Assembly (NCBI RefSeq): GCF_900111935.1
Contig: NZ_FOYN01000003.1
Location: 429,800 to 493,799, forward strand
Length of the DNA stretch: 64,000 nucleotides
DNA from: Halorubrum sodomense
GTDB lineage: Archaea; Halobacteriota; Halobacteria; Halobacteriales; Haloferacaceae
Direction: 5' to 3'
Below are positions 41,556 through 64,000 of the stretch, in pieces. The notes under the pieces are model-generated. The model did no database searches. It was not told where the DNA came from and saw only the letters and a list, made by a program, of their open reading frames with translations. Made by a program: the position numbers and the translations under genes. Position 1 is the stretch's first letter, and each line of letters opens with the position of its first letter.

Positions 41556-41598
41556 CCGTCGCCCTCGGGCCGTCGGCGTCGCCGGGTTCGGCGTCGGA

Positions 41599-42690
41599 TC
41601 AGAACTCCCCGGCGAACTCCTTATTCGTGAGGACCCGCGGATGATTCGGATGCGATCCGAGGACGCCCGGGTCACCGGCGACCCCTCGGTATTTCTCGTA
41701 GGCGTCGAACGCTTTTCCGTCTACCTCGGCCGTCACGGTCCCGCGATCCCCGCCGAAGACAGCCCAGTCGGTCCGCTTGTCGGTGTTGAACCAGCACGCC
41801 ATCTGGACGCCGTGCTCCTCGAAGTACTCGAAGACGTCGCGTATCCACCGACCCTTTCGCTCGGGGTCGTGTCCGTCGCCGTCCTCCGACGAACACGCGA
41901 ACTCCGTCACTCCGATCGGCTTCTCCGCGATGGACCTGAGCGTGGCCAGCGCCCGACCGTAACACCCTTTCGGCGACCGCCACCCGCCCCAGTTGGACCA
42001 GTTGTACCCGTGGATTCCCGTCCAGTCCACGTACTCGTCGCCGGGATAGCAGTCGCTGACGTCCACGCCCTTCGTGGTCGTGTCGATCGCCCAGATCCAC
42101 CGGACGTGGTCGCGGTCGAGGCCGGCGTCCATCACGGTATCGTGGACGTGTCGCCACATGTCGACGAAGTCGGCCTCGGTCCCCGCGCCCACGACCGGAC
42201 TCCACGGGCTCCAGTCGCCGTTCATCTCCGGGGCGAGGTTCAGATACAGTCGCCGGTCCGGCGTCGCGGGACCGCGATCGATCCACTCGGCGAGGGTGGA
42301 CGCCCACTCCTCGATGGCCGCGTCGTGGTCACCGGCCGCGATCTCGCGGTTGATCTCAGTCGATGTCTCCTCCCCAGAGCCGAAGTGGGGTTGCCAGACG
42401 AGCTGCGGCACGGACCGCCGGTGCCAGATCGACTCGAGCTGTCCGTGGACTATCGAACGGATGTCCGCCGCCGCCGCGCCCATGTCGGCGTATCGGAGCG
42501 TCACCGCGTGGTCGGCGCCCAGCCACCGTTCGAACCGGTCGAGCTGCTGGAGCGACGCGGACGCTGGCGTCACTCCCAACAGGAGCCACCCATCGCGCGT
42601 TCTGTCGTCCCGGACGAACGATCGATACGTGCCGTAGCCGGTGACCGTCACGGCCGTCCCGGTAGCGGCGAGGAGCCCTCGTCGGTTCAT
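41599..42690 (-). CDS. Exported GH26-like glycoside hydrolase
   Basis: 363 residues. The N-terminus MNRRGLLAATGTAVTVTG is a Tat-type signal (twin Arg then hydrophobic). The mature part looks like a (beta/alpha)8 GH26-type endoglycosidase: acid/base Glu155 in NLAPEMNGDWSPW (compare HEMNGxWxPW in mannanases) and probable nucleophile Glu263 in IGVTEFAC. Probably cleaves beta-1,4-type polysaccharide outside the cell. Divergent promoter with the polysaccharide synthase operon, so it may trim or release that polymer. Substrate not determinable. Confidence 0.75.
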   Translation of the reverse strand: MNRRGLLAATGTAVTVTGYGTYRSFVRDDRTRDGWLLLGVTPASASLQQLDRFERWLGADHAVTLRYADMGAAAADIRSIVHGQLESIWHRRSVPQLVWQPHFGSGEETSTEINREIAAGDHDAAIEEWASTLAEWIDRGPATPDRRLYLNLAPEMNGDWSPWSPVVGAGTEADFVDMWRHVHDTVMDAGLDRDHVRWIWAIDTTTKGVDVSDCYPGDEYVDWTGIHGYNWSNWGGWRSPKGCYGRALATLRSIAEKPIGVTEFACSSEDGDGHDPERKGRWIRDVFEYFEEHGVQMACWFNTDKRTDWAVFGGDRGTVTAEVDGKAFDAYEKYRGVAGDPGVLGSHPNHPRVLTNKEFAGEF

Positions 42691-42713
42691 GTCTGGCCGT
42701 GGTCCCGTCAGTT

Positions 42714-42721
42714 GATAGTAA
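42714..42721 (-). promoter_or_regulatory. TATA box of the GH26-like gene
   Basis: Minus strand TTACTATC, 24-31 bases before ATG 42690. Confidence 0.45.
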
Positions 42722-42789
42722 GCGATACCATACCGGGGCCGAGCGGCGAGACGGCTACCGAAGGCGCGGGCTGAGCCGAGGTAGCTCGC

Positions 42790-42799
42790 GTATACTAAT
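42790..42799 (+). promoter_or_regulatory. TATA box of the zinc protein-synthase operon
   Basis: GTATACTAAT, 26-35 bases before ATG 42825; leaderless transcript expected. Confidence 0.5.
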
Positions 42800-42824
42800 C
42801 GGGCTCTCGGGTGACCCGACCTCA

Positions 42825-43280
42825 ATGACTGACGCGAACGGAGACACCCAGTCACGGGAGACCGACGTGACGGCGTCTGCGGACGACAGGGCAGAGCCGG
42901 ACGGCGTTCGAACGGCCGCGAGGCGACTGGCCGAGGTACCGGGAACGCTCCTCTGGGTCACGGCCGACGGCGACCGCAGGGAGCTCGCGGGCGCCGACGC
43001 GCCGGCGACGAGCGACCCTGTCGCCGGGGCCATCGACGGCGGCGGTGGTCACTCACGTTGTCGGTGCGGCACCTCCGCGTGGGCGGCGGTCGTCGTCAGG
43101 GAACACGTCGAGTGCGGCCACGTGGCGGTCGACGGGTTCGTCCGCGGCGACGGGCTGTTCGCCTGTCCGAAGTGCGGTACCGAGACCGAGGCGATCGGAC
43201 GGTTCCCAGCTGTGGGGACGGTCACGGGGTGCCTCGCGTGCGGCGACCTGCTCGGTCACCGGTCCGAGGCGTCGGCGTGA
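42825..43280 (+). CDS. Cysteine-rich zinc-binding-like protein
   Basis: 151 residues: an acidic N-terminal 45, a mixed middle part, and a C-terminal Cys-rich region with CRC, CGH, CPKCG and CLACG pairs, which should form one or two zinc ribbons. No known family recognised. ATG 42825 is placed 26-35 bases after a TATA box. Its TGA overlaps the GTG of the polysaccharide synthase (GTGA), so it is made with the synthase and may regulate or activate it. Role is inferred only from context. Confidence 0.75.
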   Translation: MTDANGDTQSRETDVTASADDRAEPDGVRTAARRLAEVPGTLLWVTADGDRRELAGADAPATSDPVAGAIDGGGGHSRCRCGTSAWAAVVVREHVECGHVAVDGFVRGDGLFACPKCGTETEAIGRFPAVGTVTGCLACGDLLGHRSEASA

Positions 43281-44890
43281 GCGAACCAACTGGCGGAACA
43301 GGGCCGCGGGCAAGGAGCGACGCGAAGGCTCTCGCCGCGTTCACCCTCGTCAGCGTCGTCTTCGTCCTCGGCGGGTTGCTCGTGCCGTGGTGGTACATCG
43401 GCGTCTGTCTGGCCGTCGTCGGCGCGGTCGGAGCGACGCTGCTCACGGCTCCCCACTGGCCCGAGCCGCTCTCTCGGTTGCTCGGCCGTCGGGTCCCGAT
43501 ACGGCGGTGGCTCGGTGCGGGAGCGTTCGCCGCGGTCGTCGGTATCGTCGCGCTCATCGGCGCTCGGCCGGTCACCGTCACCAGCGCGGCGTGGACGGCG
43601 CTGCTGTGTCTGAGTTGCGCCGCGGTCGCGAGAGCACTCGCGCCGTCGGTGCTCGGTGGAACGTCGCGGTGTCCGGTCTGGCTGCTCGCCGTGACGGGCT
43701 CGGCGGCGGCCGGACTCCTGTTCGCGGCGCGGGAGCTACGTCCGGGGCCCGCACTGCTCCTCGCGGTGTTCGTCGCCCTCGCTCTGTTCCTCTGGATCGT
43801 CCTCCCGCTCGGGCTCTACCAGCGGCGGCGAGAGGAGCAGCCGACGCTCTCGACGCCGGCCCCTCGTGTGAGCGTAGTGATACCGGCATACAACGAGTCC
43901 GGATACATCGGCGACTGTATCGAGTCGATCCTCGCCTCCTCGTATCCGGCGGAGCGACTGGAGGTCGTGGTCGTCGACGACGGGAGCGAGGATTCCACGG
44001 CCGCCGAGGCCGAAGCCTACCGGGAGCAAGGAATAACCGTTCTCCGACGCGAGAACGGCGGGAAACACGCGGCGATTAACCTCGGACTACTCTGTTCGAC
44101 CGGGGAGTACGTTGTCGCCGTGGACGCCGACAGTCGGGTCGGCCCCGACGCGATCGCGACCCTGGCCTCGCGGCTTCAGGCGGAACCCGACCTCGGCGGG
44201 ATCGGCGGGACGGTCCGCGTGACCAACGACGGCACGCTCGCGCGCGTCCAGGCGCTCGAATACGCGCTCGGGATCCATTCGATGCGACGGGCGTACTCGG
44301 TGTTCGGCGCGGTCCCGGTCCTCCCGGGATGCCTCACGGCGTTCCGCCGCGAGGCGCTGGAGGAGGTCGGGGGGTTCGACCCCGACACGGCGACCGAGGA
44401 CTTCGACATCACCATTCAGCTACTGAAACACGGGTGGAAGACGCGCCACAGCTCCGCGCTCGTCTCGACGAGCGCCCCGACGACGTGGTCGGGGCTCCGA
44501 CGACAGCGGCTCCGCTGGCACCGCGGGGGCGCCGAGACGATGTGGAAACACTGGGACGCGTTGACCGATTCCCAGTACGGCTACCTCCACTGGATCGTGT
44601 TACCGGTTCAGGTCGTCTCCAGGCTACTGATACCCCCCGTGAGCTTCGCCGTCCTCGCATTGGTGGCGTTCCACTTCCTCGATAACCTGACAGGCCACAT
44701 GCTGGCCCTCTTGGCCTACTTCGTGCTGGTGACGGCGCTGATCACGGCGGTCACGTTGGTCATGGACGAAGGGGACTGGCGCCTGCTGGTGTACGCTCCG
44801 CTGTTGCTCGTCGGGTACAGGCACTTCGTCGAGTACACGGTCGCGGCTGGGATGGTCCAGTCCGCGTCGAACCGGAACTACGACTGGTGA
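43277..44890 (+). CDS. Processive family 2 glycosyltransferase (exopolysaccharide synthase type)
   Basis: 537 residues. About six N-terminal membrane helices (to about residue 180), a cytoplasmic GT2 domain, and three to four C-terminal helices. The GT-A motifs are those of processive synthases: VDDGS (233-237), DAD (283-285), TEDFD (373-377) and QRLRW (410-414), as in hyaluronan, PNAG and cellulose synthases. It probably polymerises and exports a beta-linked glycan. GTG start overlaps the zinc protein's TGA. A glycosidase gene lies divergently upstream. Polymer identity unknown. Confidence 0.88.
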   Translation: MSEPTGGTGPRARSDAKALAAFTLVSVVFVLGGLLVPWWYIGVCLAVVGAVGATLLTAPHWPEPLSRLLGRRVPIRRWLGAGAFAAVVGIVALIGARPVTVTSAAWTALLCLSCAAVARALAPSVLGGTSRCPVWLLAVTGSAAAGLLFAARELRPGPALLLAVFVALALFLWIVLPLGLYQRRREEQPTLSTPAPRVSVVIPAYNESGYIGDCIESILASSYPAERLEVVVVDDGSEDSTAAEAEAYREQGITVLRRENGGKHAAINLGLLCSTGEYVVAVDADSRVGPDAIATLASRLQAEPDLGGIGGTVRVTNDGTLARVQALEYALGIHSMRRAYSVFGAVPVLPGCLTAFRREALEEVGGFDPDTATEDFDITIQLLKHGWKTRHSSALVSTSAPTTWSGLRRQRLRWHRGGAETMWKHWDALTDSQYGYLHWIVLPVQVVSRLLIPPVSFAVLALVAFHFLDNLTGHMLALLAYFVLVTALITAVTLVMDEGDWRLLVYAPLLLVGYRHFVEYTVAAGMVQSASNRNYDW

Positions 44891-44968
44891 TCCCGAGGCG
44901 GTCAGGTTCTCGGCCGACACGGACAGACGTGCCTAACGGTTTTTTCGCCGGCCGCCGAATCGGCTCCC

Positions 44969-46285: not shown

Positions 46286-47038
46286 TTAGTCGGTCGGACC
46301 CGCATCCTGCCGACGCATTCCCCGGACGCGGCCGGCAGCGCCGGCCAGCGTCCCGGCGCCGTGAATCAGGCCCGATCGCAGCGGCAGCCCGATGTAGTTC
46401 GTGGGCGTGACCGCGTCGGCGAGGATCATCAACCACTGCTCTCGCTCGCTCCGCCCCTGTTTGGCCCACAGGCACGGTCGCTCGACCTCCTGACGATACG
46501 TCTTCGTGAGGTAGTCCGACACCGAGTCCGCGTATACGTGATCGACCACCAGGTCCGGGTCGTAGTATATGGGCGAGACCCTGAGGACCCGCTCCGCGAG
46601 CTCGAGCTCCTCGTGTCCCCACGGGATCTCCTCGTCCCACCCGCCGACCTCGTCGAACACCGCTCGCCTGACCCCCATGTTACAGCCCCAGAAGCGCGTG
46701 ACGTAGCGCGGCTCGTCGCCGAAGTCGTAGTGTTTGGTGAGATTCCCGGCGAAGATGTCGTCGCGGGGGTGGACCGTCCTCCCAGCGACGGCCGTCTCCG
46801 TTTCGAACAGCTCGGACATCCGAGCGAGGTACCCCTCGCGCGGCCGGGAGTCGTCGTCGAGGAACACCAGTTTGTCCGACTCCGCGCGCTCGATGCCCGC
46901 GTTCCGGGCAGACGTCGCCGTGGGCTCGCTCTGGAGGCAGACCTCGTAGTCGGAAAACGAGTTGGACTCCAAGTGGTCGATACACTCGACCTCGTCTCGA
47001 GGCTTCAGCGTGGGGATAATGACACTGATGTCCGTCAT
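46286..47038 (-). CDS. Family 2 glycosyltransferase
   Basis: 250 residues, soluble GT-A type: ISVIIPTLKP start, ATSARNAGIERA, FLDDDSRP (DxD-like acidic motif) and WGHEELELAERV near residue 150 carrying the general base. It lacks the QxxRW motif, so it is non-processive. ATG 47038 has a GTTATAGATT element about 30-39 bases upstream (minus strand). Acceptor unknown. Confidence 0.88.
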   Translation of the reverse strand: MTDISVIIPTLKPRDEVECIDHLESNSFSDYEVCLQSEPTATSARNAGIERAESDKLVFLDDDSRPREGYLARMSELFETETAVAGRTVHPRDDIFAGNLTKHYDFGDEPRYVTRFWGCNMGVRRAVFDEVGGWDEEIPWGHEELELAERVLRVSPIYYDPDLVVDHVYADSVSDYLTKTYRQEVERPCLWAKQGRSEREQWLMILADAVTPTNYIGLPLRSGLIHGAGTLAGAAGRVRGMRRQDAGPTD

Positions 47039-47344: not shown

Positions 47345-48163
47345 ATGCCGTTCGAACCGCTGTCGGACGCGAGCCGGGCCGCGAACCTGGTCAAACACCA
47401 GGCTCTCAAGCGGCTCAACCGGCGACGGAGCACGTCTGCGGTCCCGCCCGCTCGGTTCGAAGAGCTGCTCGACTACCACGGCGACGGGCACTCGAAAGCG
47501 TTCGTTCACGTCGGGCTGAGCGACGTGAAACAGGCGTTCGGGACCGACCCGTACGCGTTCCTCCGGTCGACGCTGAGCGACCGCTTCCGGAGCGTGCTCG
47601 CGCCGGGGTTCACGGACTACTTCGCCACGTCCGGGGTGTATCACAAGGAGTACTCCCGGCCGAAACACGGGACCTTCGGGCCGCTGTTCCTCCGGGACGC
47701 GGACTACCGGACCGACGACGCGATGAAGTCGATCCTGGTCGAGGGGCCGTACCGCTTCGACGGCTGCCGCCACTCGGACAGCTACCACGAGGACGGCTGC
47801 TTCGCCCGTCTCGTCGAGGAGGACACCCTGATACTGGACGTCGGGACGCCGTGGCTTACCTGCTCTCACCTCCACCACTTCGAGAGCCGGCTCGACCTCG
47901 ACTACGTCGCCGAGGAGACCTTCGAGGGGGTGCGATGCTCCGAGGAGGACGGCTGCGTGCCGGTCGAGCAGACCTGCGGGGTCCGGACTTCGCCGTTCTA
48001 CTCGTGGAACAAGCCGAAGCTGACCAGGCGCCTAGAGCGCGACGGCGTGCTCCACAGGTACGACCTGAACGGGCTCAAAGTCCTCTTCTTCACCCTCGGC
48101 GACCTGGAGTCGTCCCTCGTTCCGCGTCTGAAAGCGGACCCGCAGTACCTGGTGACGCTATGA
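47345..48163 (+). CDS. AAC(3)-fold acyltransferase-like protein
   Basis: 272 residues resembling the aminoglycoside 3-N-acetyltransferase (AAC(3)/YokD) fold: FVHVGLSDVK near residue 52, HGTFGPLF, then the SDSYHEDGCFARLVEEDTLIL stretch and LTCSHLHHFESRLDL, the last comparable to the substrate/CoA-binding end of the family. It is probably an acetyltransferase acting on a sugar rather than on antibiotics, given the glycan neighbourhood. Six cysteines are present, unusual in this window. Confidence 0.6.
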   Translation: MPFEPLSDASRAANLVKHQALKRLNRRRSTSAVPPARFEELLDYHGDGHSKAFVHVGLSDVKQAFGTDPYAFLRSTLSDRFRSVLAPGFTDYFATSGVYHKEYSRPKHGTFGPLFLRDADYRTDDAMKSILVEGPYRFDGCRHSDSYHEDGCFARLVEEDTLILDVGTPWLTCSHLHHFESRLDLDYVAEETFEGVRCSEEDGCVPVEQTCGVRTSPFYSWNKPKLTRRLERDGVLHRYDLNGLKVLFFTLGDLESSLVPRLKADPQYLVTL

Positions 48164-48437
48164 CCGTGATCCCCCGACATTCAGACGACACCAGGGTAGG
48201 TGAGACGGTGCGGGCCGCGCCGCCGGACCCGCTGGGAGCCCCTCGCAGCGCCGTCGTCGGTAGTCGACGGATAACAAAACTGATCTCCGTGGAGGGGGCT
48301 GACATGAACGGCGAATCCCCGCCCGGTCGGCCGCTCATCGGGCCGTGCGGTGCGGACGAGGGCGGCGGTCGACAGTTTGACGGCGCGCCCGAGGAGGAGA
48401 CCGCGCGGAGGCGGTCGGTGTGCGGACGGAGGGCGAG

Positions 48438-49610
48438 ATGAGCCTCGTCGACGGGGCGGACGCCGACGCCGCCGACGGCGAGTCGGTCTCGGCGTCGGCC
48501 GCGTCCGCGGTCCCGACGTCGACGGCGGTGCTCGTCGTCGGCCCGGCGGGGTACCGTACCGAGGGTACCGGAGGGATCGGCCAGTACATCGCCGAACAGC
48601 GGCGGCATCTCGAGGACCGCGTGTCGCTAAACGTCGTCGACACCGCCGTGCGGACTCCAGAGCGACCGATCGAGTACCTCCGGACCGTAGTGACCGTCCT
48701 CCTCGTGTGGCTCGGATTCCTCGCGCGCCGGCGACCCGACATCGTCCACGTCCACACCTCCCACTCGTTCTCGTTTTTCCTCTCGGCCCCGTACGTACTC
48801 GTCGCCGGGCTGTTGTGGCGGCGGCCGGTAATACTCCACGTCCACGGCTCCGCGTTCGACGAGTTCCTTGAGGACGCCTCGGCGGTGGCCGCTCGCTTCC
48901 AACAGGCGGTGTTCGACGCCTGTACCGCGGTCGTCGCCCTCTCGGACCACTGGCGCGAGGTCCTCGCTGCTCGCGTCCCGTCGGAACGCATCGTCGTGAT
49001 CCCCAACGCCGTCAACCCGGACGAGTACGACCCGGACCCCGGAGCCGACCCGCCGCATCTCGTGTTCGTCTCTAACCACATCGAGCGGAAGGGGATAGTA
49101 GAGGTGACGAGGGCCATCGACGAGCTCAGAGACGCCGGGGTCCGGTTCCGGGCGACAATCGCCGGAAGCGGCCCGCTGTCCGACCACGCTGAGGCCGTCG
49201 CCGACGCGCACGACGGTGTGGAATACGTCGGCTTCGTGTCCGAAGAGCGGAAGCGCGACCTCCTCGGTGAGGGGAGCGTCTACGTCCTCCCCACGAGGGC
49301 CGAGGGGCTGCCGATCGCCGTCCTCGAGGCGATGGCCGGAGCGAACGCGATCGTCTCGACCGACGTCGGGGGGATCCCTTCCCTCGTCGACGAGGCGAAC
49401 GGTGCGCTCGTCGTTCCCGGGGACGGTCGGGCTCTAACAGACGCCCTCGAGGAGGTGCTCGCGGATCCGGAGGCGACCGAACGGATGGGCCGAGTCAGTC
49501 GCCGCCGCATCGAGGAGTCCTATGCGTGGCCCGACGTGGTCGAAGAACTGCTCTCGCTGTACGCTCGCGCGCTGGACGACGACGCTGCGACCACCCTCCC
49601 CGAGGAGTGA
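48438..49610 (+). CDS. GT4-family glycosyltransferase
   Basis: 390 residues of the GT-B type. N-terminal GTGGIGQYIAEQ, middle HVHTSHSFSFF and VILHVHGSAFD; C-terminal FVSNHIERKGI, GSGPL and the EX7E region PTRAEGLPIAVLEAMA. GTG at 48420 gives 6 more residues; ATG 48438 is taken. The 274-base upstream gap holds a GATAACAAAACT promoter-like stretch near 48265-48276. Confidence 0.9.
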   Translation: MSLVDGADADAADGESVSASAASAVPTSTAVLVVGPAGYRTEGTGGIGQYIAEQRRHLEDRVSLNVVDTAVRTPERPIEYLRTVVTVLLVWLGFLARRRPDIVHVHTSHSFSFFLSAPYVLVAGLLWRRPVILHVHGSAFDEFLEDASAVAARFQQAVFDACTAVVALSDHWREVLAARVPSERIVVIPNAVNPDEYDPDPGADPPHLVFVSNHIERKGIVEVTRAIDELRDAGVRFRATIAGSGPLSDHAEAVADAHDGVEYVGFVSEERKRDLLGEGSVYVLPTRAEGLPIAVLEAMAGANAIVSTDVGGIPSLVDEANGALVVPGDGRALTDALEEVLADPEATERMGRVSRRRIEESYAWPDVVEELLSLYARALDDDAATTLPEE

Positions 49611-49684
49611 ACCGGTCCTCCCCGCGGCCGCTGCGTCCGGTGGACCTCGGTCAGAAGGCTGTACCTGTGCCGAGGTATGAGCCG

Positions 49685-49691
49685 TATAATA
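49685..49691 (+). promoter_or_regulatory. TATA box of the NUDIX gene
   Basis: TATAATA, 29-35 bases before ATG 49720. One of the clearest AT-rich promoters in the window. Confidence 0.6.
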
Positions 49692-49719
49692 ATCAACACG
49701 GGTCCTGTCGGTAGGGAGT

Positions 49720-50223
49720 ATGCGAAATCACCCTTCCGAAGGCGTCGTCCGGTGGGTACGCGATGAGCGAGGGGCTCCGTCCCCTCCGAACGTGTCGGAG
49801 GGTGAACCCGAGCGCCGGAAGCTCCGGTTCGGAGCGAAAGCCCTCGTCACGAACGACGACGGGGTCCTGCTCGTCAGGGAGCGCCACGACGACGGCTCGC
49901 CGTTCTGGACGCTCCCGGGCGGCGGCGTCGAGCCCGGGGAATCCCTCTCGGAGTGTCTCAGCCGGGAGATCGCCGAGGAGATCCGGTGCCGCGCCGCCGT
50001 CGGCAAGCGGGTCGGCCGCCTTGTTTACCGGCACACGAGTCGCCCCGCGACGACCGTCTACACGATATTCGACGCGACGCTCGAGTCGGAGCCAGCGCCG
50101 AACCCGTCGGAGCGAATCCTCGACTACGACTGGCTGAAGCCCACTGAGCTGCTGTCGACGACTCTCGAACCCGTCGAGCGCTTCATCGAGCGGTCGGTGG
50201 CGGAACCGGACGGAGAGCGGTGA
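49720..50223 (+). CDS. NUDIX hydrolase
   Basis: 167 residues with a Nudix box: GGGVEPGESLSECLSREIAEEI, matching GX5EX7REUXEEXG. Hydrolyses a nucleoside diphosphate-linked substrate (possibly a nucleotide sugar, given the cluster). The N-terminal 30 residues are polar and the catalytic domain starts at about 35. TGA overlaps a possible GTG of the next gene. Confidence 0.92.
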   Translation: MRNHPSEGVVRWVRDERGAPSPPNVSEGEPERRKLRFGAKALVTNDDGVLLVRERHDDGSPFWTLPGGGVEPGESLSECLSREIAEEIRCRAAVGKRVGRLVYRHTSRPATTVYTIFDATLESEPAPNPSERILDYDWLKPTELLSTTLEPVERFIERSVAEPDGER

Positions 50224-50243
50224 CACCGCCACCGAGCCACACG

Positions 50244-50774
50244 ATGACGGAAACTCAGGAAAACGGACTGAATCAGGACGAGCTGTTCAGCCTCCTCAGC
50301 AATCCGCGACGGCGGTTCATCCTTCAGTACCTGAATAAGAACCCGGGTGGGATCCGACTACAGGACCTCGCGACCGAGGTCGCGGCGTGGGAAAACGAGA
50401 CGGACCCCGAGGAGCTGACCGACAAAGAGGAGAAGCGGCTCTACGTCTCCCTCCATCAGACGCACATTCCGAAGCTCGAAGCGGCCGGGATCGTCGAACA
50501 CGACAGCGACACGGGCGAGATACGGCTCACTGACCGCGGCACCGACGTCAACCGCTACCTCGACGCGGACGCCCCCGACGGCGACGACTCGCGACCGTGG
50601 GGACGCTACTACCTCCTGATCGCCCTGTTCGGTGTCGCGGTGTACGGCCTGGTCACGCTCAGCGGCGGATCGGTCGACCAGACCGAGGTCGTGGCGATCG
50701 GTGTCGCCTGGGCTCTGCTCGTCGCGATCGCGCTGTTCCAATATATCGAGACCGAACGGGGCGGTCGGGACTGA
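50244..50774 (+). CDS. Haloarchaeal winged-helix regulator with membrane anchor
   Basis: 176 residues. N-terminal helix-turn-helix of the type often annotated DUF7344: LFSLLSNPRRRFILQYL and a LHQTHIPKLEAAGIVEHD recognition region (about 10-80). Two C-terminal hydrophobic helices (about 120-140 and 148-170) make it a membrane-anchored regulator. ATG 50244 is preferred; GTG 50220 overlaps the NUDIX stop. Possibly senses envelope state and controls the glycan genes (inference). Confidence 0.8.
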   Translation: MTETQENGLNQDELFSLLSNPRRRFILQYLNKNPGGIRLQDLATEVAAWENETDPEELTDKEEKRLYVSLHQTHIPKLEAAGIVEHDSDTGEIRLTDRGTDVNRYLDADAPDGDDSRPWGRYYLLIALFGVAVYGLVTLSGGSVDQTEVVAIGVAWALLVAIALFQYIETERGGRD

Positions 50775-50800
50775 GCCGCACCGTCGGGGGGACCCGTCCG

Positions 50801-51376
50801 TCACTTCGAGCGCCAGACCGACCGCGGCAGGGCGAAACCCGGTTTTCCGTCGCGGAGCCAGAGAGCCGCGGTCCCGCAGAGGAAGAGCCCCTGTGCCAGG
50901 AAGTACGTCCGACCTACTTCGCCGCCGAGGAGAGCCCGGCTGTCCAGCAGCAGCTGTAGCGTCTTCGCGCCGAGCCCCGGCGGGGCGGAGGCGGACACGG
51001 GGGGTGCGTAGACCGGCCAGAGGAACGAGGGGAGGACCGGCGGCCGACCGAACAGGCCGGCGAAGAGGATGTCTCCCAACACGTGGATCACGTGGCCGAT
51101 CGCGACCGCGGCGCCGAACTCGGCCTGGCCCCTGAACCGGAGGCCGACGGCGACGGCGAGCGCGACGGGAACGCCGACGATCAGGGAGTGCGCGGCGCCG
51201 ACGCCGTTGCTCAGCAGTCCGAACTGCCAGGCCAGTGGCTTGTCGATGAGGTCCGGAAGTTGGGTGGCGACCGCGAGGACGACCGCGGCCCGGTCGCTCG
51301 GCCGACGCCGTAACGCGATCCGGACGAACGCCGAGAACGCGACGTACCCGACCGCCAGGTGACTCCACGGCCACAT
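50801..51376 (-). CDS. YdjM-like metal-dependent hydrolase-family membrane protein
   Basis: 191 residues. Opens with MWPWSHLAVGYV, the LexA-regulated/YdjM-type membrane hydrolase signature, then QLPDLIDKPLAW, GAAHSLIVG and HVIHVLGDILF, which give His/Asp candidates for a metal site within membrane helices. Four or five helices. Starts 3 bases after the DUF1616 gene ends, so co-transcribed with it. Enzymatic activity is not proven for this family. Confidence 0.85.
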   Translation of the reverse strand: MWPWSHLAVGYVAFSAFVRIALRRRPSDRAAVVLAVATQLPDLIDKPLAWQFGLLSNGVGAAHSLIVGVPVALAVAVGLRFRGQAEFGAAVAIGHVIHVLGDILFAGLFGRPPVLPSFLWPVYAPPVSASAPPGLGAKTLQLLLDSRALLGGEVGRTYFLAQGLFLCGTAALWLRDGKPGFALPRSVWRSK

Positions 51377-51379
51377 CGC

Positions 51380-52339
51380 TTACTCACCGCTCGCCGCGGA
51401 CGGCTGGATGTCCAACCAAACGTAGGTGGTCCTGTACGCCGTGTCGGCCGTCGGGTTCTCGGGCGGATCCCCTCGGTAGAGATACGTCACGAAGCGCACG
51501 TTCTCACCGGCGAGCGACGCCCGGAACTCCTCGGACTCGCGCCAGCTCTCACCCTGCGCCAGCTCGAAGGCGTGTTGGTCTATCCGACGCTTGTCGGTGA
51601 CGACGACTGACCGCCCGCTGAGCTGAACTCGTTGAAGCTCAGTGACGACGGTGTACTCGACCGGCCGATGCTCGTCGTTGGTCACGCCGACGGTGATGGC
51701 AGCCGACTCGCCCTGGGTCAGCGCGTTCGGGTAGTCGTTCGCGACCAGCTGTCCCCCCTGTTCGGTCAGGAGGTGGAGGTCCGTCGCCGTCTCTCCGTCG
51801 GCTGGGACGGTCACCGCCGTGCCCAGCGTTCCGACCGCGAGGATCACGCTCACCGCGAGGATGACCGTGGAGGGAGTTAGACCGCCGGAGAGGAGGCCGG
51901 ATGACGATATCTCGGTCCCGGATCGCGCCGGTCCGGTCCGGTGACCGCCGCCTCCGGAGTGGCCGGTGCGACGGACGACCGTGGCGGCGGCGACGACGAC
52001 GACGTACCCGGAGACGAGCCCGACGAGCCCCCACGTGGTCAGCGCCCCGACCGCGAGGTAGACGATGATCGCGAGCAGGGGGAGTATCGCCAGACTGCCG
52101 CCGAGCGAGAGCGCGAACCGCTCGACGACGGTTGTGAACGTCCATGGCGCGCGCTCGCGCCCGGCGTACGCGAACGCCGCGGTCACGTACCCGGGGAGCA
52201 CGAGGAGCAGGAGGACGGCGGGCGGGAGTCGGGCCACACCAGTCGTACCGATCGCGATGGTCACGACCGAGACCGCGACCGACACCCCCACCGCCAGAAG
52301 GTCGCGGCTCTCGAAGAGCTCGTCGGCTATCGAACTCAT
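51380..52339 (-). CDS. DUF1616-domain membrane protein
   Basis: 319 residues. N-terminal half with four hydrophobic helices (LLLLVLPGYVTAAFAYAG is typical of DUF1616), then a helix near 150-175, and a large extracytoplasmic part with beta-rich ITVGVTNDEHRPVEYTVVTELQ. DUF1616 proteins occur in archaeal surface-glycan and S-layer clusters; activity is unknown. Confidence 0.88.
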   Translation of the reverse strand: MSSIADELFESRDLLAVGVSVAVSVVTIAIGTTGVARLPPAVLLLLVLPGYVTAAFAYAGRERAPWTFTTVVERFALSLGGSLAILPLLAIIVYLAVGALTTWGLVGLVSGYVVVVAAATVVRRTGHSGGGGHRTGPARSGTEISSSGLLSGGLTPSTVILAVSVILAVGTLGTAVTVPADGETATDLHLLTEQGGQLVANDYPNALTQGESAAITVGVTNDEHRPVEYTVVTELQRVQLSGRSVVVTDKRRIDQHAFELAQGESWRESEEFRASLAGENVRFVTYLYRGDPPENPTADTAYRTTYVWLDIQPSAASGE

Positions 52340-52697
52340 CGCCGTCCGGGGCGCGAGCGGTTGGGCCCGCTACGGCGGGTTCCTACGGCGACCGGGACTG
52401 GACGACGGTCACGCGGTGCGGGGTGACGCTCGCCGGACGAGGGGGCACGGCCGCGTGAGACGAGACGGCGGTCACTCATTCGGACATCTCTCCGTCGGGT
52501 CGCCATATCGTTATGGAGAACATATTCCGGTCCTCTGACGCGATGGCCGATCGCCCGCAGCCGGTAAGATTTCGTTACCGCCTGACTCCGCGCGGATCGC
52601 CGACAGCCGGACCGCGGGAACCGAGTCGTCGTCGCGGCGCTCGGGTCGTCGTAAACAATCTCCACGCCTTATGCCCGTACGGCAGGTAGGGAGCCCG
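52340..52697. other. 358-base divergent intergenic region
   Basis: No gene supported. Contains a 14-base palindrome CCATA-TCGT-TATGG (52503-52516), and at its right end the TATA element CCTTATGC (52667-52674) of the HTH gene at 52698. No clear DUF1616 promoter was identified. Confidence 0.6.
52667..52674 (+). promoter_or_regulatory. TATA box of the small HTH gene
   Basis: CCTTATGC, 24-31 bases before ATG 52698; an alternative upstream ATG at 52671 lies within it and is therefore unlikely. Confidence 0.5.
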
Positions 52698-52997
52698 ATG
52701 GAGAACGAGCGGAACGAAGACTCCACTGACTGGGATCAGATCGGGTTCATCATCAGCTCCAAGTACCGAACGGCGGTGCTCGAACAGCTCGTCGACGGCC
52801 CGTCGATCCCCTCGTCTATCGCGTCCCGAACTAGTCTCCCGATCACGCACGTCTCGCGGGCGCTGCGCTCCCTCCGGGAGCGCTCGCTCGTCGAACTGCT
52901 CGTCTCGAAAGAGAAGCGAAAGGGTCGCATCTACGGCGTCACCGAGGAAGGGAAGCGGCTCTGGGAACGGATCGAGGCCGAGGGGTTGGCCGACTGA
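52698..52997 (+). CDS. Small winged-helix transcriptional regulator
   Basis: 99 residues: a single winged-helix domain (FIISSKYRTAVLEQLV, then THVSRALRSLRERSLVELL and RIYGVTEEGKRLW), like the MarR/ArsR-type small regulators of haloarchaea. No sensor domain. Its 3' end overlaps the convergent membrane-protein gene by 59 bases. It probably regulates neighbouring glycan genes; target unknown. Confidence 0.85.
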   Translation: MENERNEDSTDWDQIGFIISSKYRTAVLEQLVDGPSIPSSIASRTSLPITHVSRALRSLRERSLVELLVSKEKRKGRIYGVTEEGKRLWERIEAEGLAD

Positions 52998-55119
52998 GCC
53001 TCGACGCGGCCGCGACGGGAACGCTCGGCGCCGTTCTCCGCGCTCTCCCGGAGGCGATCCGCTCGCGGTCGTCGACCGCGTTCGCGGACGGGTCCTCCTC
53101 GATGTCGACGAAGTAGACCGTCAACTCGCCGTTATCCCTGACTTTCCCGACGTTCGGCTGGGCAGCAACGGCCTCGAAGCTCTCCGCGGAGTACCGCAGT
53201 TCCCGGTACGCCTCGACCTCCCGCTGGCGGTCGGCCTCCGCGACCACGAAGTAGTGGTCACGCCTGACGACTTCCTCCGGGTGGTTCGCGTAAAACGTCG
53301 GCAACCCGTCCAACATCGCCTGCTCCGGGACCGGTGCGCTCTTTTTGACGGCCGGTTTCACCTGTCGGTCCCACGGCGCCCCCGCCGCGCCGTACAGCGC
53401 GATCTCGTAGCGATCGGACGTGTGACGCACTCCGCTGAACCACACCGGCGACCCGCTCGACTGGCTCGCGAACGCCCGCTCGTAACCGTCCATCTCGCCC
53501 TCCGGGACGTGCGAGCCAGACAGGTAGACGAACGGAGAGGGGAAAATCGTCGCCAGCGACAGCGACAGGACGAGCACGACGGCCGCGACCGTCGCGACTG
53601 TTCTGGCGTCGGGGAGCGACGCCGCGATCCGTCGCCCGGTCGACCGGCTCTCGGGCTCAGTCCACGGGTAATCGACGTCGCTCACGGACGATTCCTCGTC
53701 GAGCAGGTACCGGACGCCGACCGCCCCGAATATCGTGGCGAGCATCACGAGGAACCCGACGTGTCGGAAGAGGTACGTCGAGATGGACCCCACGAGGTGG
53801 GCCGCGAAGAACGGGAACAGCAGCAGACACCCGGCGAAAAACAACGCGGTGACGTCCCTGGCGGTGTCCGGCGTGGACCGCATCGATCCGGCCCCGGCCG
53901 GCGGGCCGAGGTAGCCGGTCAGTCGCCCCGCCACGACCCCCGCCGCGAGCAGCGAGTAGACCGCCGCGACCCCGAACAGCTTGACGAACAGCACCTGGAT
54001 GCTCGCCCCGACCGACGACGCGGACTCCCTCTGGCTCGCCACGCGGGGAGTCGCGCTACCGTCGCCGGTGACGAAGTCGCTCACCGACTGGATCATCGCC
54101 TCCGCCGTGTTGATGAACTGCCACTCGTGGGTGGCGATCCAGGCCGCGAACGCCACCGTGAGAAAGATCGTCTGAAGCGTGACCAGCCGGTACCCGGCGA
54201 TCGGGTCGTTCGGGCGGAACCATCGGAACGCGTGCTGTGCGACCGCCATCCCACCGAGCAGCAACATGACGTTCAACGCGACCTGAGGGTGAACCAGCAG
54301 GAGGGCGAACAGGACCGGCGGCAGGAGGTAGGTCGTCGGGGCCGGCCGCCGCAGTCCCACGTCGAACGCCGCACCGTCGTCGTACCCCAACCCGGCACGG
54401 TCGATCGCTCCCCGTCCGTCCGCGACCCGTTCGACGAGGCGCTCACGTCCGTCCCCGCCGATCAGGTGCGAGAACACGAGGTACAACACGAAGGGAACGA
54501 ACAGCATCCCGATCGAGTAGGTGTGGAAGTGGAGGTACGTGCTGACGTTGTTTACCGGGAGGAGGAGGAACGCGGAGAATGCCCCGACCCCGAGCGCCCG
54601 GCGGTCGGGGACCAGAAACCAGACGCAGAGCGCGACGCTCGCGAAGAACAGGAGCGTGTACGCCCACATGACGAGCATCATGGCCCGTGGGACGTCCACG
54701 GCCGCGACCTTCGCGAGCCCGGTCGCGATGAGGTGGCTCCCCGGATAAAACAGCTGGAGCGGGTCGTTTCCAATCTTTATCGACCGGACGAGTCCGAGGT
54801 GAACGAGCGAGTCGCTCCGGCCGTAGAAGTGGTAGCCCCGGATCAGCGGGAGCCCGGCGACCGACCCGGCCCCGAGCCCCCCGAGTAGCACCGCCGGTGC
54901 GAGGTACCGCTCGGCGGTGAGGAAGACGGCGACCGAGATCGCGGCTACGACGGCGAGCGCCGCCCACGTCGCCGTCGGCGTCGACGCGTATATCGACAGC
55001 TCGTAGCCCGTCGCCGGGGCGGTGTACGCGGCGCCGACCGCGGCCGCGAGGGCGAGGTAGCCGACCGCCAGTCCCGTTTCGACCACTTCCTCTCTGCCGA
55101 GTCTGACCGGCTTCCTCAC
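52939..55119 (-). CDS. Large multi-pass membrane protein, GT-C-like
   Basis: 726 residues with about 12 membrane helices up to residue 540, then a soluble extracytoplasmic part. The early loop YGRSDSLVHLGLVRSIK has acidic residues in the place where GT-C enzymes carry catalytic Asp, so a lipid-sugar-dependent glycosyltransferase or polymerase is suspected. GTG start at 55119. The C-terminal 45 residues (Arg/Pro/Ser-rich) read through the antisense of the HTH gene and look unlike the rest, so the true stop may once have been upstream. Family not recognised. Confidence 0.7.
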   Translation of the reverse strand: MRKPVRLGREEVVETGLAVGYLALAAAVGAAYTAPATGYELSIYASTPTATWAALAVVAAISVAVFLTAERYLAPAVLLGGLGAGSVAGLPLIRGYHFYGRSDSLVHLGLVRSIKIGNDPLQLFYPGSHLIATGLAKVAAVDVPRAMMLVMWAYTLLFFASVALCVWFLVPDRRALGVGAFSAFLLLPVNNVSTYLHFHTYSIGMLFVPFVLYLVFSHLIGGDGRERLVERVADGRGAIDRAGLGYDDGAAFDVGLRRPAPTTYLLPPVLFALLLVHPQVALNVMLLLGGMAVAQHAFRWFRPNDPIAGYRLVTLQTIFLTVAFAAWIATHEWQFINTAEAMIQSVSDFVTGDGSATPRVASQRESASSVGASIQVLFVKLFGVAAVYSLLAAGVVAGRLTGYLGPPAGAGSMRSTPDTARDVTALFFAGCLLLFPFFAAHLVGSISTYLFRHVGFLVMLATIFGAVGVRYLLDEESSVSDVDYPWTEPESRSTGRRIAASLPDARTVATVAAVVLVLSLSLATIFPSPFVYLSGSHVPEGEMDGYERAFASQSSGSPVWFSGVRHTSDRYEIALYGAAGAPWDRQVKPAVKKSAPVPEQAMLDGLPTFYANHPEEVVRRDHYFVVAEADRQREVEAYRELRYSAESFEAVAAQPNVGKVRDNGELTVYFVDIEEDPSANAVDDRERIASGRARRTAPSVPVAAASRLSRPTPRPRSVPRAASLPR

Positions 55120-55334
55120 GTCGTCTCACTCCGTGTTCGATCTCGCGGACCGCGACTCGTCCGCGTTGTCGCGGGCCTGACGCGCTGGTGAACGAGCACT
55201 ACCCTATCGAACCCGGTGGCGTGTTTTGTTATACATCGGTTACCGGCCCCGGAAGCCCCCCGTTTCCCCGCCCGCCGGGGGTCAGGGCGGTAAGCGAGCC
55301 ATTACAATTAGATCGGGTCTCCGAAATCGAGCAC

Positions 55335-56459
55335 ATGCGATTCGTCTTCTTCACGAACACGCCCGCCCACGTACATCTGTACAAACACGCCGTCGACCGA
55401 CTGGAGCGGGCCGGTCACGACGTGCTCGTCTTGGGCCGGGACTACGGCTGTACGGTCGCGCTGCTCGACCGGTACGACCTTCCCTATCGGATCTACGGCG
55501 CCTGCGGAACGACGAAGGAGTCGCTGTTCCGGAACCTCCCCTGGCACTACGCCCGCCTCGTTCCCGCGGTCCGGTCGTTCGCTCCCGACGTGATATTCGG
55601 GGTCGGCGCGTACGCTGCCCACGCCGGGTTGGTCAGCGGCGCCCCCGCGGTGTTGGTCCTCGACTCGGAGCCGACCTCTCTCGATCACGCCGTCTCCCGA
55701 CCGTTCGCCGCGGCGTTCCTCACGCCGCACACCTTCGGGAAGGATCTCGGGGAATCCCATTACCAGTTCCACGGCTTCTGCGAGACGGCGTACCTCCACC
55801 CGGACGCCTACCGGCCGAACCCGGAGATACGCGATGCCCTCGACCTCGCCGACGACGAGGCGTTCGTCCTCCTGCGGTTCAACGCGTTCGGGTCGCACCA
55901 CGACGTGGGGCACTCCGGATTCGCGCCGGAACAGCGCGAACGGCTGGTCGAGACGTTCGCGGACCACGCCGCGGTGTTCGTCTCCGACGAGGGCGGGACG
56001 CTGGACCTCGACTCGCTTCCCGCCCGCGAGTTCGACGTCCACCCCGCGCTACTTCACGACGCGCTGTCGGCGGCGCGGCTCGTCGTCACGGACACGCAGA
56101 CGGTCTGTACCGAGGCCGCGCTGCTCGGGACGCCGGTCGTCCGATCCAACTCCTTCGTCGGCGACGGCGACATGGGGAACTTCACAGAGCTGGAGCGACG
56201 GGGTCTAGTGGTCAACACTCCCGAGTTCGAGGAGGTCGTCTCTACGGGCGTCGACGTCCTGCGCGACGAATCGATCGGCGAGGACTGGCGGCGCCGACGC
56301 GACGAGTACGTCGGTGGACTCGTGGATCTCACGGACGTGATCGTCGCGGTCGCTGAAGCGGACGGCGGGACCGCGGTCCCGGGCCTCGAACGGTGGCGCG
56401 GCGGGACCGAGCGACACACACCCGACCGGTCGACGCCCCTCACGGAGGAGTCGACGTGA
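55335..56459 (+). CDS. DUF354-family glycosyltransferase-like protein
   Basis: 374 residues of the DUF354 type (GT-B fold related to UDP-GlcNAc 2-epimerases): MRFVFFTNTPAHVHLYK at the start, GVGAYAAHAGLVSG, PHTFGKDLG and the SAARLVVTDTQTVCTEAALLGTPVVRSNS nucleotide-sugar-binding end. The frame is open from 55188, but ATG 55335 fits the domain and a CATTACAATTAG element lies about 27 bases upstream. Its TGA overlaps the GTG of the next gene (GTGA). Confidence 0.85.
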   Translation: MRFVFFTNTPAHVHLYKHAVDRLERAGHDVLVLGRDYGCTVALLDRYDLPYRIYGACGTTKESLFRNLPWHYARLVPAVRSFAPDVIFGVGAYAAHAGLVSGAPAVLVLDSEPTSLDHAVSRPFAAAFLTPHTFGKDLGESHYQFHGFCETAYLHPDAYRPNPEIRDALDLADDEAFVLLRFNAFGSHHDVGHSGFAPEQRERLVETFADHAAVFVSDEGGTLDLDSLPAREFDVHPALLHDALSAARLVVTDTQTVCTEAALLGTPVVRSNSFVGDGDMGNFTELERRGLVVNTPEFEEVVSTGVDVLRDESIGEDWRRRRDEYVGGLVDLTDVIVAVAEADGGTAVPGLERWRGGTERHTPDRSTPLTEEST

Positions 56460-57829
56460 CGGCCTCCGACATCGGGGCGGCCGACGAAGACGGCGTGAAC
56501 CGCGCGGAGGGGGCCGGCGGTGAGCCGGGTCGGCCTCTCGCAGACCGCGGGACCGACGACGCTCTTCCCGCGCTCGAGACCGGCGGACACGACGACGCAC
56601 ACTGGGTCGCGGACGACGCCGTCGCGGAGATTCTGACGGAGACGCTCCGCTATGCGAGGGAGCGCGACTACACCGGCTGGGACTACTTCGACGGCATGAG
56701 CAGCCGCATCAGGCGGGCGCTGCCCTTCGAGACCAAGTGGACGAACATCCTGATACAAGAGGTCATAAAGCGGGCGCCGGTCAACGTCCGGCGGCTCATG
56801 TCGGTGGAACAGCGGCAGAGCTTCAAGGGGACCGCGCTGTTCGTGCTGGCAAATCGGCGGGCGTACGACCGCCTCGGCGACGCCTGCTACCGCCGCGAGG
56901 CCGACCGGCTGTCGACGTGGCTCGTCGAGAACCGGACGCGCGGCTACGGGGGGTTCTGTGGCGGGCACCAGCACGCGACGCAGGGGCTCGACAAGCGGTT
57001 GCCGGCGAAACACCCCGGCATCGTCTCGACCGGTTACGCGGTGCGAGCGCTGCTGTCCCAGAGCGACGGCACCGGAGATGTCGAGAACGACGCGGATCCC
57101 CTCGACGGAGCTGCCGGCGGAAGCCTCGCGGCGGTCGCCGAGTCCGCGCTCCCGTTCGTGTTCGAGGCGCTCAACTACCGGGAGTCGGACGGGACGGCCA
57201 GGATCGACTACCACGCCGGCGCCGAGGCGGGCGAGGCGACGGTCATCAACGCGAACGCGCTCGGCGCGCGGCTGCTCCTCGACCTCCACGATCGCCACCC
57301 TCGTCCCGAACTCCGCGAGCGAGCGGAGCGGATCTTAGACTACGTCGCGAGCCAGCAGGCCGACGTCGGCGGGTGGACGTACACCGACCCGCCGTCCGCC
57401 TCGCACCTCTCGATGGACAACCACCACAACGGGTTCGTCTTGGAGTCGCTCCTCCGGCATCGAGAGGTGACGGGGGCGACCCGGTACGACGACACGCTAG
57501 AGCGCGGGATCGAGTTCTACCGCCGGACGCTGTTCGAGCCCTCCGGGGCGCCCAACTGGGACGAGGAGAGCGCCTATCCGAAGGACGTCCACGCCGCGGC
57601 GGAGGGGATCGTGCTGTTCAGCGCGGCCGGCGACACGGCGTTCGCGTCCCGGATCATCGACTGGACGCTCTCGGAGCTGTACGCCGGCGACGGGCAGTTC
57701 TACTACCAGAAACGCCGGTTCTACACGAAGCGGTTCACGCTGATGCGCTGGTGTCAGGCGTGGATGGCTTTCGCCCTCGGCGAGTACCTGAACGCCCGTG
57801 AGCGAGGGCGCGAACGGAACGGGCAGTAG
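56456..57829 (+). CDS. Alpha/alpha-toroid-like protein of the glycan cluster
   Basis: 457 residues. After an acidic, poorly conserved first 60 residues comes a predicted all-helical toroid with repeated aromatic-rich turns: GWDYFDGMSSR, GGFCGGHQHATQG, QADVGGWTYTDPP and SMDNHHNGFVLESL. This resembles polysaccharide lyase/epimerase-type alpha/alpha folds; homologues are often given unrelated transporter names. GTG start overlaps the DUF354 stop, so the two are coupled and may act together on a surface glycan. No catalytic residues can be named with confidence. Confidence 0.7.
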   Translation: MTASDIGAADEDGVNRAEGAGGEPGRPLADRGTDDALPALETGGHDDAHWVADDAVAEILTETLRYARERDYTGWDYFDGMSSRIRRALPFETKWTNILIQEVIKRAPVNVRRLMSVEQRQSFKGTALFVLANRRAYDRLGDACYRREADRLSTWLVENRTRGYGGFCGGHQHATQGLDKRLPAKHPGIVSTGYAVRALLSQSDGTGDVENDADPLDGAAGGSLAAVAESALPFVFEALNYRESDGTARIDYHAGAEAGEATVINANALGARLLLDLHDRHPRPELRERAERILDYVASQQADVGGWTYTDPPSASHLSMDNHHNGFVLESLLRHREVTGATRYDDTLERGIEFYRRTLFEPSGAPNWDEESAYPKDVHAAAEGIVLFSAAGDTAFASRIIDWTLSELYAGDGQFYYQKRRFYTKRFTLMRWCQAWMAFALGEYLNARERGRERNGQ

Positions 57830-57861
57830 CGGTCGGCGGCGCGACCGCGCTTCTCCTCCGC

Positions 57862-58944
57862 TCAGTCGTCCGGCGCGTCGGCGAGCCTCGTCTCGATGGC
57901 CGAGACGGTCAGATCGGCCGCGTTGCCGCCGCCGTACAGCTCGGGTTTCGGCGGGAGCTCCGATCGGTCGAACAGCGCCCGGGAGATGCGGTCCGGGTCG
58001 CTCCCGACCAGCACGTTCCATCCCGCCTCGACGGTCTCGACCCACTCCGTCTCGTCGCGGAGCGTGACGCAGGGCGTGTCGAGGTAGAACGCCTCCTTCT
58101 GGACCCCGCCGGAGTCGGTGGCGACCTTCGACGCGTTCGCGAGCAGTTGAAGGAACTCGACGTAGCCGACCGGGTCGACGAGGCGGACCTTCGCAGCCGC
58201 GCGGTCGTACAGGCCGTGCTCCCGGAGCGCGTTCTCCGTCCGCGGGTGGAGCGGCAGGACGACCGGGATGTCGACCCCGGTCAAACCGTCGAGGATCCCT
58301 GCCAGTCGGTCCGGATCGTCGGTGTTCGACGCCCGGTGGACCGTCGCTAAAGCGTACGCGTCGGGGCGGAGCCCCGGAACCGGGAGGGGAGCGTCCCCGT
58401 CGAGCACCCGGTCGCGAACGGCGAGGACGGCGTCGTACATCACGTCGCCGGTCACGACCACGTCGCCCCTGATCCCGCCGTCGCGGAGATTCTCCGCGGC
58501 GTTCTCTCCGGGCGTCAACAGCAGGTCCGAGCAGTGGTCGGTGAGGACGCGGTTCACCTCCTCGGGCATCGACCACTTGCCGCTCCGGAGGCCGGCCTCG
58601 ACGTGCGCCAGGATCGGTTCCCGTTTCGCCGCGACCAGCGCGGCCGCGAGCGTCGAGTTCGTGTCGCCGTAGACGAGCACGGCGTCCGGCGACTCCGCCT
58701 CGATCACCTCGTCTATCAGGCGCATCATCTCGGCCGTCTGCGGGGCGTGATCCGCCGATCCCACGCCGAGGTTGTACTCCGGTTCCGGGATGTCGAGCTC
58801 CTCGAAGAAGACCCCGGACAGCGACTCGTCGTAGTGCTGTCCGGTGTGGATCAGGACCTCCTCGTGGTTCGCGCGCAGCCGCCGAGAGACCGGGAACGCC
58901 TTGACGAACTGGGGGCGCGCGCCGACCACCGAACAGATCCGCAC
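57862..58944 (-). CDS. Non-hydrolysing UDP-GlcNAc-type 2-epimerase (WecB/WbpI-like)
   Basis: 360 residues of the GT-B fold epimerase family: VGARPQFVKAFPV start, HTGQHYD, YGDTNSTLAAALVA, HVEAGLRSG, MPEEVNRVLTDH and LATVHRASNTD. Converts UDP-GlcNAc to UDP-ManNAc (WecB) or UDP-GlcNAc3NAcA to the mannuronic form (WbpI). The presence of WbpA/B/E/D-like genes upstream in the same operon favours the latter. Last gene of the operon. Confidence 0.9.
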   Translation of the reverse strand: MRICSVVGARPQFVKAFPVSRRLRANHEEVLIHTGQHYDESLSGVFFEELDIPEPEYNLGVGSADHAPQTAEMMRLIDEVIEAESPDAVLVYGDTNSTLAAALVAAKREPILAHVEAGLRSGKWSMPEEVNRVLTDHCSDLLLTPGENAAENLRDGGIRGDVVVTGDVMYDAVLAVRDRVLDGDAPLPVPGLRPDAYALATVHRASNTDDPDRLAGILDGLTGVDIPVVLPLHPRTENALREHGLYDRAAAKVRLVDPVGYVEFLQLLANASKVATDSGGVQKEAFYLDTPCVTLRDETEWVETVEAGWNVLVGSDPDRISRALFDRSELPPKPELYGGGNAADLTVSAIETRLADAPDD

Positions 58945-58947
58945 GGG

Positions 58948-63689: not shown

Positions 63690-64000
63690 GCTATCGTGTT
63701 GGAGTCGTCGAGCGGTTCCGGGAGGTCTCGGTGTTCGGCGGGGACGCCGGCGGCGAGCGTCTCGGGCGGCACGTCGTCGGTGACGACGGCGCCGGCGGCC
63801 ACGAACGCCCGTTCGCCGACGGAGACGCCGGGGAGGACGGTCGCGTTGGCGCCGATAGAGACCGAGTCGGCGAGCGTGGGCCCCTCGAGGTCGCCGTTCC
63901 GGCGGACGGGGTAGGGGTCGTTCGTCAGCACCGCGCCCGGTCCGACGAACACGCCGTCGCCTATCGCGGTCTCCCGGGGGACGTACACGTTCGTCTGGAG
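63686..64000 (-). CDS. Left-handed beta-helix N-acetyltransferase, C-terminal part (WbpD-like)
   Basis: About 104 codons at the window edge; the start lies beyond base 64000. Hexapeptide repeats: IGDGVFVGPGAVLTND, VSIGANATVLPGVSVG, AFVAAGAVVTDDVPP, the pattern of sugar N-acetyltransferases. It should acetylate the 3-amino group using acetyl-CoA. The internal ATG at 63988 is probably not the start, since the frame stays open and in register to the edge. Confidence 0.88.
   Translation of the reverse strand, partial: LQTNVYVPRETAIGDGVFVGPGAVLTNDPYPVRRNGDLEGPTLADSVSIGANATVLPGVSVGERAFVAAGAVVTDDVPPETLAAGVPAEHRDLPEPLDDSNTIA

Follow-up and report, generated by a model that had tools for sequence, protein, structure and literature searches.

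A putative synthase-dependent exopolysaccharide module with a TackOD1-type zinc protein in Halorubrum sodomense

Do three neighbouring genes of Halorubrum sodomense, encoding a membrane glycosyltransferase of family 2 (GT2), a small Cys-rich protein and a GH26-like glycosidase, together make and trim a surface polymer, and what would the Cys-rich protein contribute? A haloarchaeal module of this kind is relevant since archaeal biofilm polymer genes are poorly known. We analysed a 64,000-nucleotide stretch of contig NZ_FOYN01000003.1 (hereafter, the window), for which a sequence-only reading had proposed such a module, with the Cys-rich protein replacing control of the c-di-GMP type. We consider it probable that the cassette is a synthase-dependent exopolysaccharide module in which a TackOD1-type protein acts as the cytosolic assembly or regulatory partner of the synthase. 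What appears to be new here is the likely assignment of the zinc protein to the TackOD1 type and the role of synthase partner proposed for this domain of obscure function.

The cassette, its insertion site and its products

The gene boundaries proposed earlier were confirmed (Table 1). The GTG start codon of the synthase lies in a GTGA overlap of 4 nt with the end of the Cys-rich ORF, and the glycosidase gene starts divergently from the ATG of the latter. In eight congeners purQ is followed directly by a glyoxalase gene, 41-74 nt apart, and in the window the cassette sits exactly between these two genes (41556-44968), which marks it as a discrete unit that was probably acquired. The codon usage score of the cassette is below that of its neighbours; flanking repeats marking a mobile element were looked for around it and not found. 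Other congeners carry approximately 300-800 nt of different sequence at this site. The N-glycosylation gene AglF lies near the cassette but outside the inserted unit, and many glycosyltransferase and sugar-modifying genes occupy the window from 47345 to 64000, a stretch that reads, from its genes, as a surface-glycan island.

Table 1 Features of the cassette and of one nearby gene, in window coordinates
Feature	Coordinates	Strand	Basis
GH26 endo-beta-glycosidase, Lic26A-type, Tat-like N-terminus	41599..42690	-	Pfam, PDB match, residue alignment
Divergent intergenic region, 134 nt, presumably containing both promoters	42691..42824	.	Coordinates
Soluble zinc-ribbon protein, 151 aa, putative minimal TackOD1 core, no TM helix	42825..43280	+	Pfam (below cut-off), alignment, profile-profile
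Putative processive-type membrane GT2 synthase, 537 aa	43277..44890	+	Pfam GT2, NCBIfam, AF2, Foldseek
Second, soluble GT2-like protein, optional accessory outside the inserted unit	46286..47038	-	Homologues adjoin GH26 elsewhere

The synthase matches the Pfam GT2 family, and the motif set read earlier from its sequence (VDDGS, DAD, TEDFD and QRLRW) is invariant or nearly so among 28 relatives. Its best NCBIfam match is PgaC_IcaA, at 186 bits versus an equivalog cut-off of 422, which makes it a relative and not a member of that family; MftF (108 bits), NodC (100) and CelA (74) scored lower, the last against a cut-off of 699 for the CelA/BcsA model TIGR03030, so that with this score and no PilZ domain the protein falls outside the CelA/BcsA family. 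In the AF2 model (pLDDT 86.8) a GT-A domain is preceded by about six TM helices and followed by three, and the top Foldseek matches of this model are hyaluronan synthases (HAS) and BcsA. The defining features of the HAS/BcsA/PgaC class, namely D, D(x)D, TED and Q(x)xRW together with a C-terminal TM bundle, are all found in the protein, which clusters with polymerising enzymes both by profile and by predicted structure and may well be processive. The best single-sequence PDB match is PcManGT (6yv7), an archaeal mannosyltransferase of Pyrobaculum calidifontis that was also structurally close by Foldseek, and this proximity keeps alive the single-sugar alternative weighed below.

The glycosidase, previously called only GH26-like on the strength of two Glu residues, proved to be a true GH26 (PF02156, 24.4 bits versus a cut-off of 20.2). 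Its closest solved relative is the lichenase Lic26A of Clostridium thermocellum (2bv9), retrieved by a single-sequence PDB search with E=2e-20 over only part of the domain and by a profile search with E=1.6e-34. Residues E155 and E263 align with the catalytic E109 and E222 of Lic26A and are invariant in 13 haloarchaeal GH26 homologues; by this alignment, E155 would be the acid/base and E263 the nucleophile of an enzyme predicted to hydrolyse a beta-linked polysaccharide. The Tat signal attributed to this protein is plausible, but its N-terminus (MNRRGLL) is weaker than those of homologues (MNRRTFLG or MERRTFLG). These homologous starts, together with a lipobox-like Cys that we read in two homologues (SGCAG and AGCSE), support export of GH26 through Tat. 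No clear signal-peptidase site was seen in the N-terminus, so an uncleaved anchor is possible. At four other haloarchaeal loci (L060, L063, L064 and L071) GH26 genes adjoin a different type of GT2-like gene, encoding up to approximately 441 aa, which suggests a second synthase-GH26 pairing. Homologues of the soluble GT2-like protein of the window were found beside GH26 in two haloarchaea (55% identity) and near GH26 genes at L071.

The CxC, EHxxCG, CPxC and CxxC sites described in the Cys-rich protein are present, and their Cys and His residues are invariant in relatives. The Pfam TackOD1 model (PF18551) scored 18.3 bits over positions 94-155 of its 188, versus a cut-off of 32, and the protein is therefore not a formal member. 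When profiles were compared with hhalign, probabilities of 97.6 (E 3e-12) against a bacterial and archaeal TackOD1 set and 98.1 (E 1e-13) against a haloarchaeal set were obtained, indicating that the zinc core is homologous to TackOD1; a GT2-linked relative reached 100 bits with the Pfam model. On these profile comparisons we regard the Cys-rich protein as a minimal TackOD1-type zinc ribbon that retains the central part of the domain alone. Its structural model has a whole-chain pLDDT of 66.9, with mostly high values in the core (residues 80-140), and gave no significant Foldseek match in the PDB. Generic zinc fingers returned by a profile search of the PDB with the zinc domain were set aside as convergent Cys spacing. 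In the parts of the original report that concern it, TackOD1 (arCOG06883), named in 2018, is described as a domain with five CXXC motifs and one HXXC, defined as a response-regulator output domain in REC and REC-wHTH architectures, present also in some bacteria and of obscure function (PMC5847659); the passages of that report on TackOD1 or on glycosyltransferases state no link between the domain and a GT2 synthase.

Gene context in haloarchaea and in other phyla

With the three cassette proteins as queries, the divergent GH26/GT2 pair was found in ten haloarchaeal genomes, that of the window included, and the zinc gene accompanied it in eight of them, being missing in G247 and G250. The arrangement recurs in other haloarchaeal genera and is thus not due to chance; zinc and GH26 genes, looked for beside the synthase in related genomes, were indeed found there. 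A search profile for the zinc domain matched 73 of the 392 genomes of the order; as it derives from zinc proteins linked to a GT2, the sample leans towards that subfamily. Among 51 haloarchaeal loci inspected, 32 had a GT2 gene adjoining the zinc domain, and the remaining 19 were mostly full-length TackOD1 genes of approximately 330 or 670-735 aa. Since the glycosidase-synthase pair occurs without the zinc protein in two genomes, and TackOD1 without an adjoining GT2 at 19 loci, the two parts do not depend strictly on each other. At L122-L125, L128, L129 and L131-L141, TackOD1 is encoded in genes of 330 aa or placed midway in ORFs of 670-735 aa, with no GT2 neighbour.

Of the 32 GT2-linked loci, 22 encode, next to this same GT2, a fusion of the zinc domain with a DUF2334 deacetylase. 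In the five fusions examined a single predicted TM helix separates the two, which would place the zinc domain in the cytosol if the deacetylase lies outside. All four parts occur together in G112 and G071, although the GT2 of G071 runs off the contig end. At least 16 haloarchaeal loci show gene overlaps of 4 nt; Halorussus halophilus has a run of three overlapping genes, for the zinc protein, DUF2334 and GT2. One genome carries a second, nearly identical but truncated zinc-domain copy (L102, 7931-8239) without GT2 or deacetylase. A DUF2334 deacetylase is part of most haloarchaeal versions of the module, and in many of them it is tethered to the zinc domain. The three genes of the sequence-only reading do belong together, and conserved linkage and the grouping of the GT2 support its proposal of a surface polymer produced and trimmed by a synthase module; it had overlooked the deacetylase usual in relatives and the spread of the pairing to bacteria. 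In the H. sodomense genome (99.8% complete) no deacetylase was matched by a DUF2334 homologue query (used in place of the PF10096 model) or by Pfam Polysacc_deac_1, a model that was positive in 11 of 14 known genomes used as a control. The polymer of this host is accordingly probably not modified by a DUF2334-class deacetylase.

Outside the haloarchaea, TackOD1 loci were detected with the Pfam model and a GT2 gene within about 1.5 kb was counted as a neighbour. A PgaC-like GT2 accompanied TackOD1 in 18/18 loci of Bacteroidia, 4/5 of Alphaproteobacteria and 13/30 of Nitrososphaeria, the independent counts for the first two being 17/17 and 3/4 because the centre genomes (L231 and L230) had been chosen for their GT2; none of nine sub-threshold control loci had such a neighbour. 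Bacterial plasmid matches to a TackOD1 protein query had a GT2 neighbour in 15 of 15 cases. The TackOD1 and GT2 genes overlap by 4 nt in the five alphaproteobacterial plasmid loci examined closely, an overlap found in six bacterial loci, and HlyD lies downstream of the plasmid pair in Phyllobacterium and Aminobacter. Among the matches listed in searches of GT2 flanks, TackOD1 was beside the synthase in Brockarchaeota and in an unclassified archaeon, there with a histidine kinase and a REC-TackOD1 protein; the listed pairs of Emcibacter and Chryseobacterium showed, respectively, a 4-nt overlap and neighbouring HlyD-like and weak outer-membrane efflux matches. Other TackOD1-linked GT2s tested, bacterial ones included, also had PgaC/IcaA as their top match (154-196 bits). 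REC or degenerate GGDEF domains are present in TackOD1 proteins adjoining GT2s in these phyla, and three bacterial TackOD1 proteins lack the GG[DE]EF motif, some of them (plasmid matches, and for example L227, 5605-6987) being annotated as diguanylate cyclases. Gene context is consistent across archaea and bacteria with a role of TackOD1 as partner of GT2 synthases. Given these fused domains and the TackOD1-type ribbon of the cassette, the earlier idea that the zinc protein regulates the synthase is a reasonable one.

Alternative readings and a proposed mechanism

Which polymer would be made is the point on which a variant of our reading fares best. The product could be a neutral beta-glucan (cellulose or mixed-linkage), with GH26 as a lichenase-type enzyme dedicated to editing it, in the manner of BcsZ and cellulose. 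The kinship of the glycosidase with Lic26A, the presence of BcsA among the top structural matches of the synthase, a nearby UDP-glucose supply (AglF) and the lack of a detectable Polysacc_deac_1 or DUF2334-type deacetylase in the genome all suit it. Moreover, neutral beta-glucans, mannans and xylans are the substrates of characterised GH26 enzymes, an awkward fit to a PNAG-like polymer. However, PgaC/IcaA scored well above CelA, the match to Lic26A in the single-sequence search was partial, and the deacetylase of sister modules points to N-acetylhexosamine units. We consider a beta-glucan possible, with the balance tilting against it.

The zinc protein might instead bind DNA or RNA and regulate the locus without contacting the synthase. 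Zinc ribbons often bind nucleic acid, this one is soluble and lacks a TM helix, and TackOD1 was defined as a response-regulator output domain in the passages cited above (PMC5847659). Nevertheless, no significant fold match was found in the PDB, and the domain forms, in 22 haloarchaeal loci, the N-terminal part of a membrane protein whose deacetylase presumably faces outward, an arrangement that suits the cytosolic face of the synthase better than DNA; we regard this alternative as unlikely.

Slightly more doubtful is a non-polymerising GT2 that adds one sugar onto a lipid or dolichol carrier for N-glycosylation or a glycolipid, with GH26 and the zinc protein acting on the glycoconjugate. While the match to PcManGT and the vicinity of AglF would agree with such a role, AglF is not part of the inserted unit, the full QxxRW motif, the C-terminal TM bundle and the structural matches to HAS and BcsA speak for a synthase, and the conserved partners, an endo-glycosidase and a polysaccharide deacetylase, imply a polymer. 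Finally, that GH26 is a secreted scavenging enzyme lying beside the synthase by accident seems very improbable: several haloarchaea do have multiple GH26 copies away from cassette-type GT2s, but the GH26s closest to that of the window are divergently linked to the cassette GT2 in ten genomes of several families.

In the module that we favour, the membrane GT2 would polymerise a nucleotide-sugar and extrude a beta-linked chain, while the translationally coupled zinc ribbon would bind the synthase on its cytosolic face as an assembly or regulatory subunit, taking the place of the PgaD or PilZ domains of bacterial systems. The exported GH26 might then cut the emerging chain for trimming, for release or to clear misdirected chains. 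As to TackOD1 in general, we lean cautiously towards a zinc-binding domain that is widespread in archaea and bacteria and regulates or assembles PgaC-like GT2 exopolysaccharide synthases, where it would replace PilZ and PgaD. In bacteria, fused REC or degenerate GGDEF domains would provide its signal input; in haloarchaea it would be coupled through the membrane to a deacetylase. Gene context over several archaeal and bacterial phyla would thus point a domain of obscure function to one role, that of membrane polysaccharide synthase partner. If true, this would provide a compact synthase-dependent exopolysaccharide system for archaea, where c-di-GMP signalling is almost absent.

Comparison with known systems

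In the part of the literature searched, no description was found of DUF2334 in connection with exopolysaccharide or of haloarchaeal GT2 synthase modules. The closest parallel is with the PNAG systems PgaABCD and IcaADBC, PgaC/IcaA being the best NCBIfam match of the cassette GT2 and of other TackOD1-linked GT2s. The PgaB/IcaB deacetylase corresponds to DUF2334, the PgaB hydrolase to GH26 and PgaD to the small partner. The cassette differs in that its GT2 is below the equivalog cut-off, in having GH26 for the PgaB hydrolase and a zinc ribbon for PgaD, in lacking an outer-membrane porin and in that the host genome lacks the detectable partner deacetylase that PNAG-type systems have and most relatives carry.

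With bacterial cellulose (BcsA and BcsZ) and the mixed-linkage synthase BgsA, the cassette shares a membrane GT2 with D,D,D,QxxRW; like the former, it has an endoglucanase-type partner (GH26) and BcsA is among its top structural matches, but it contains neither PilZ nor a known c-di-GMP domain and its CelA score is low. Kinship with BgsA was set aside given this score and the fact that no HlyD partner was seen in haloarchaea.

Two archaeal precedents are also informative. The REC-GT2 fusion MTH_548 of Methanobacteriaceae likewise joins a signalling domain to a BcsA-like GT2, whereas the passages describing it report no zinc ribbon or hydrolase (PMC5847659). HAH_1662 and HAH_1667, shown by knock-out to be glycosyltransferases for the acidic exopolysaccharide of Haloarcula hispanica, resemble the cassette GT2 as haloarchaeal exopolysaccharide glycosyltransferases, but they are GT-B, PimA-like enzymes of a multi-glycosyltransferase cluster and not a membrane GT2 synthase (PMC5467301).
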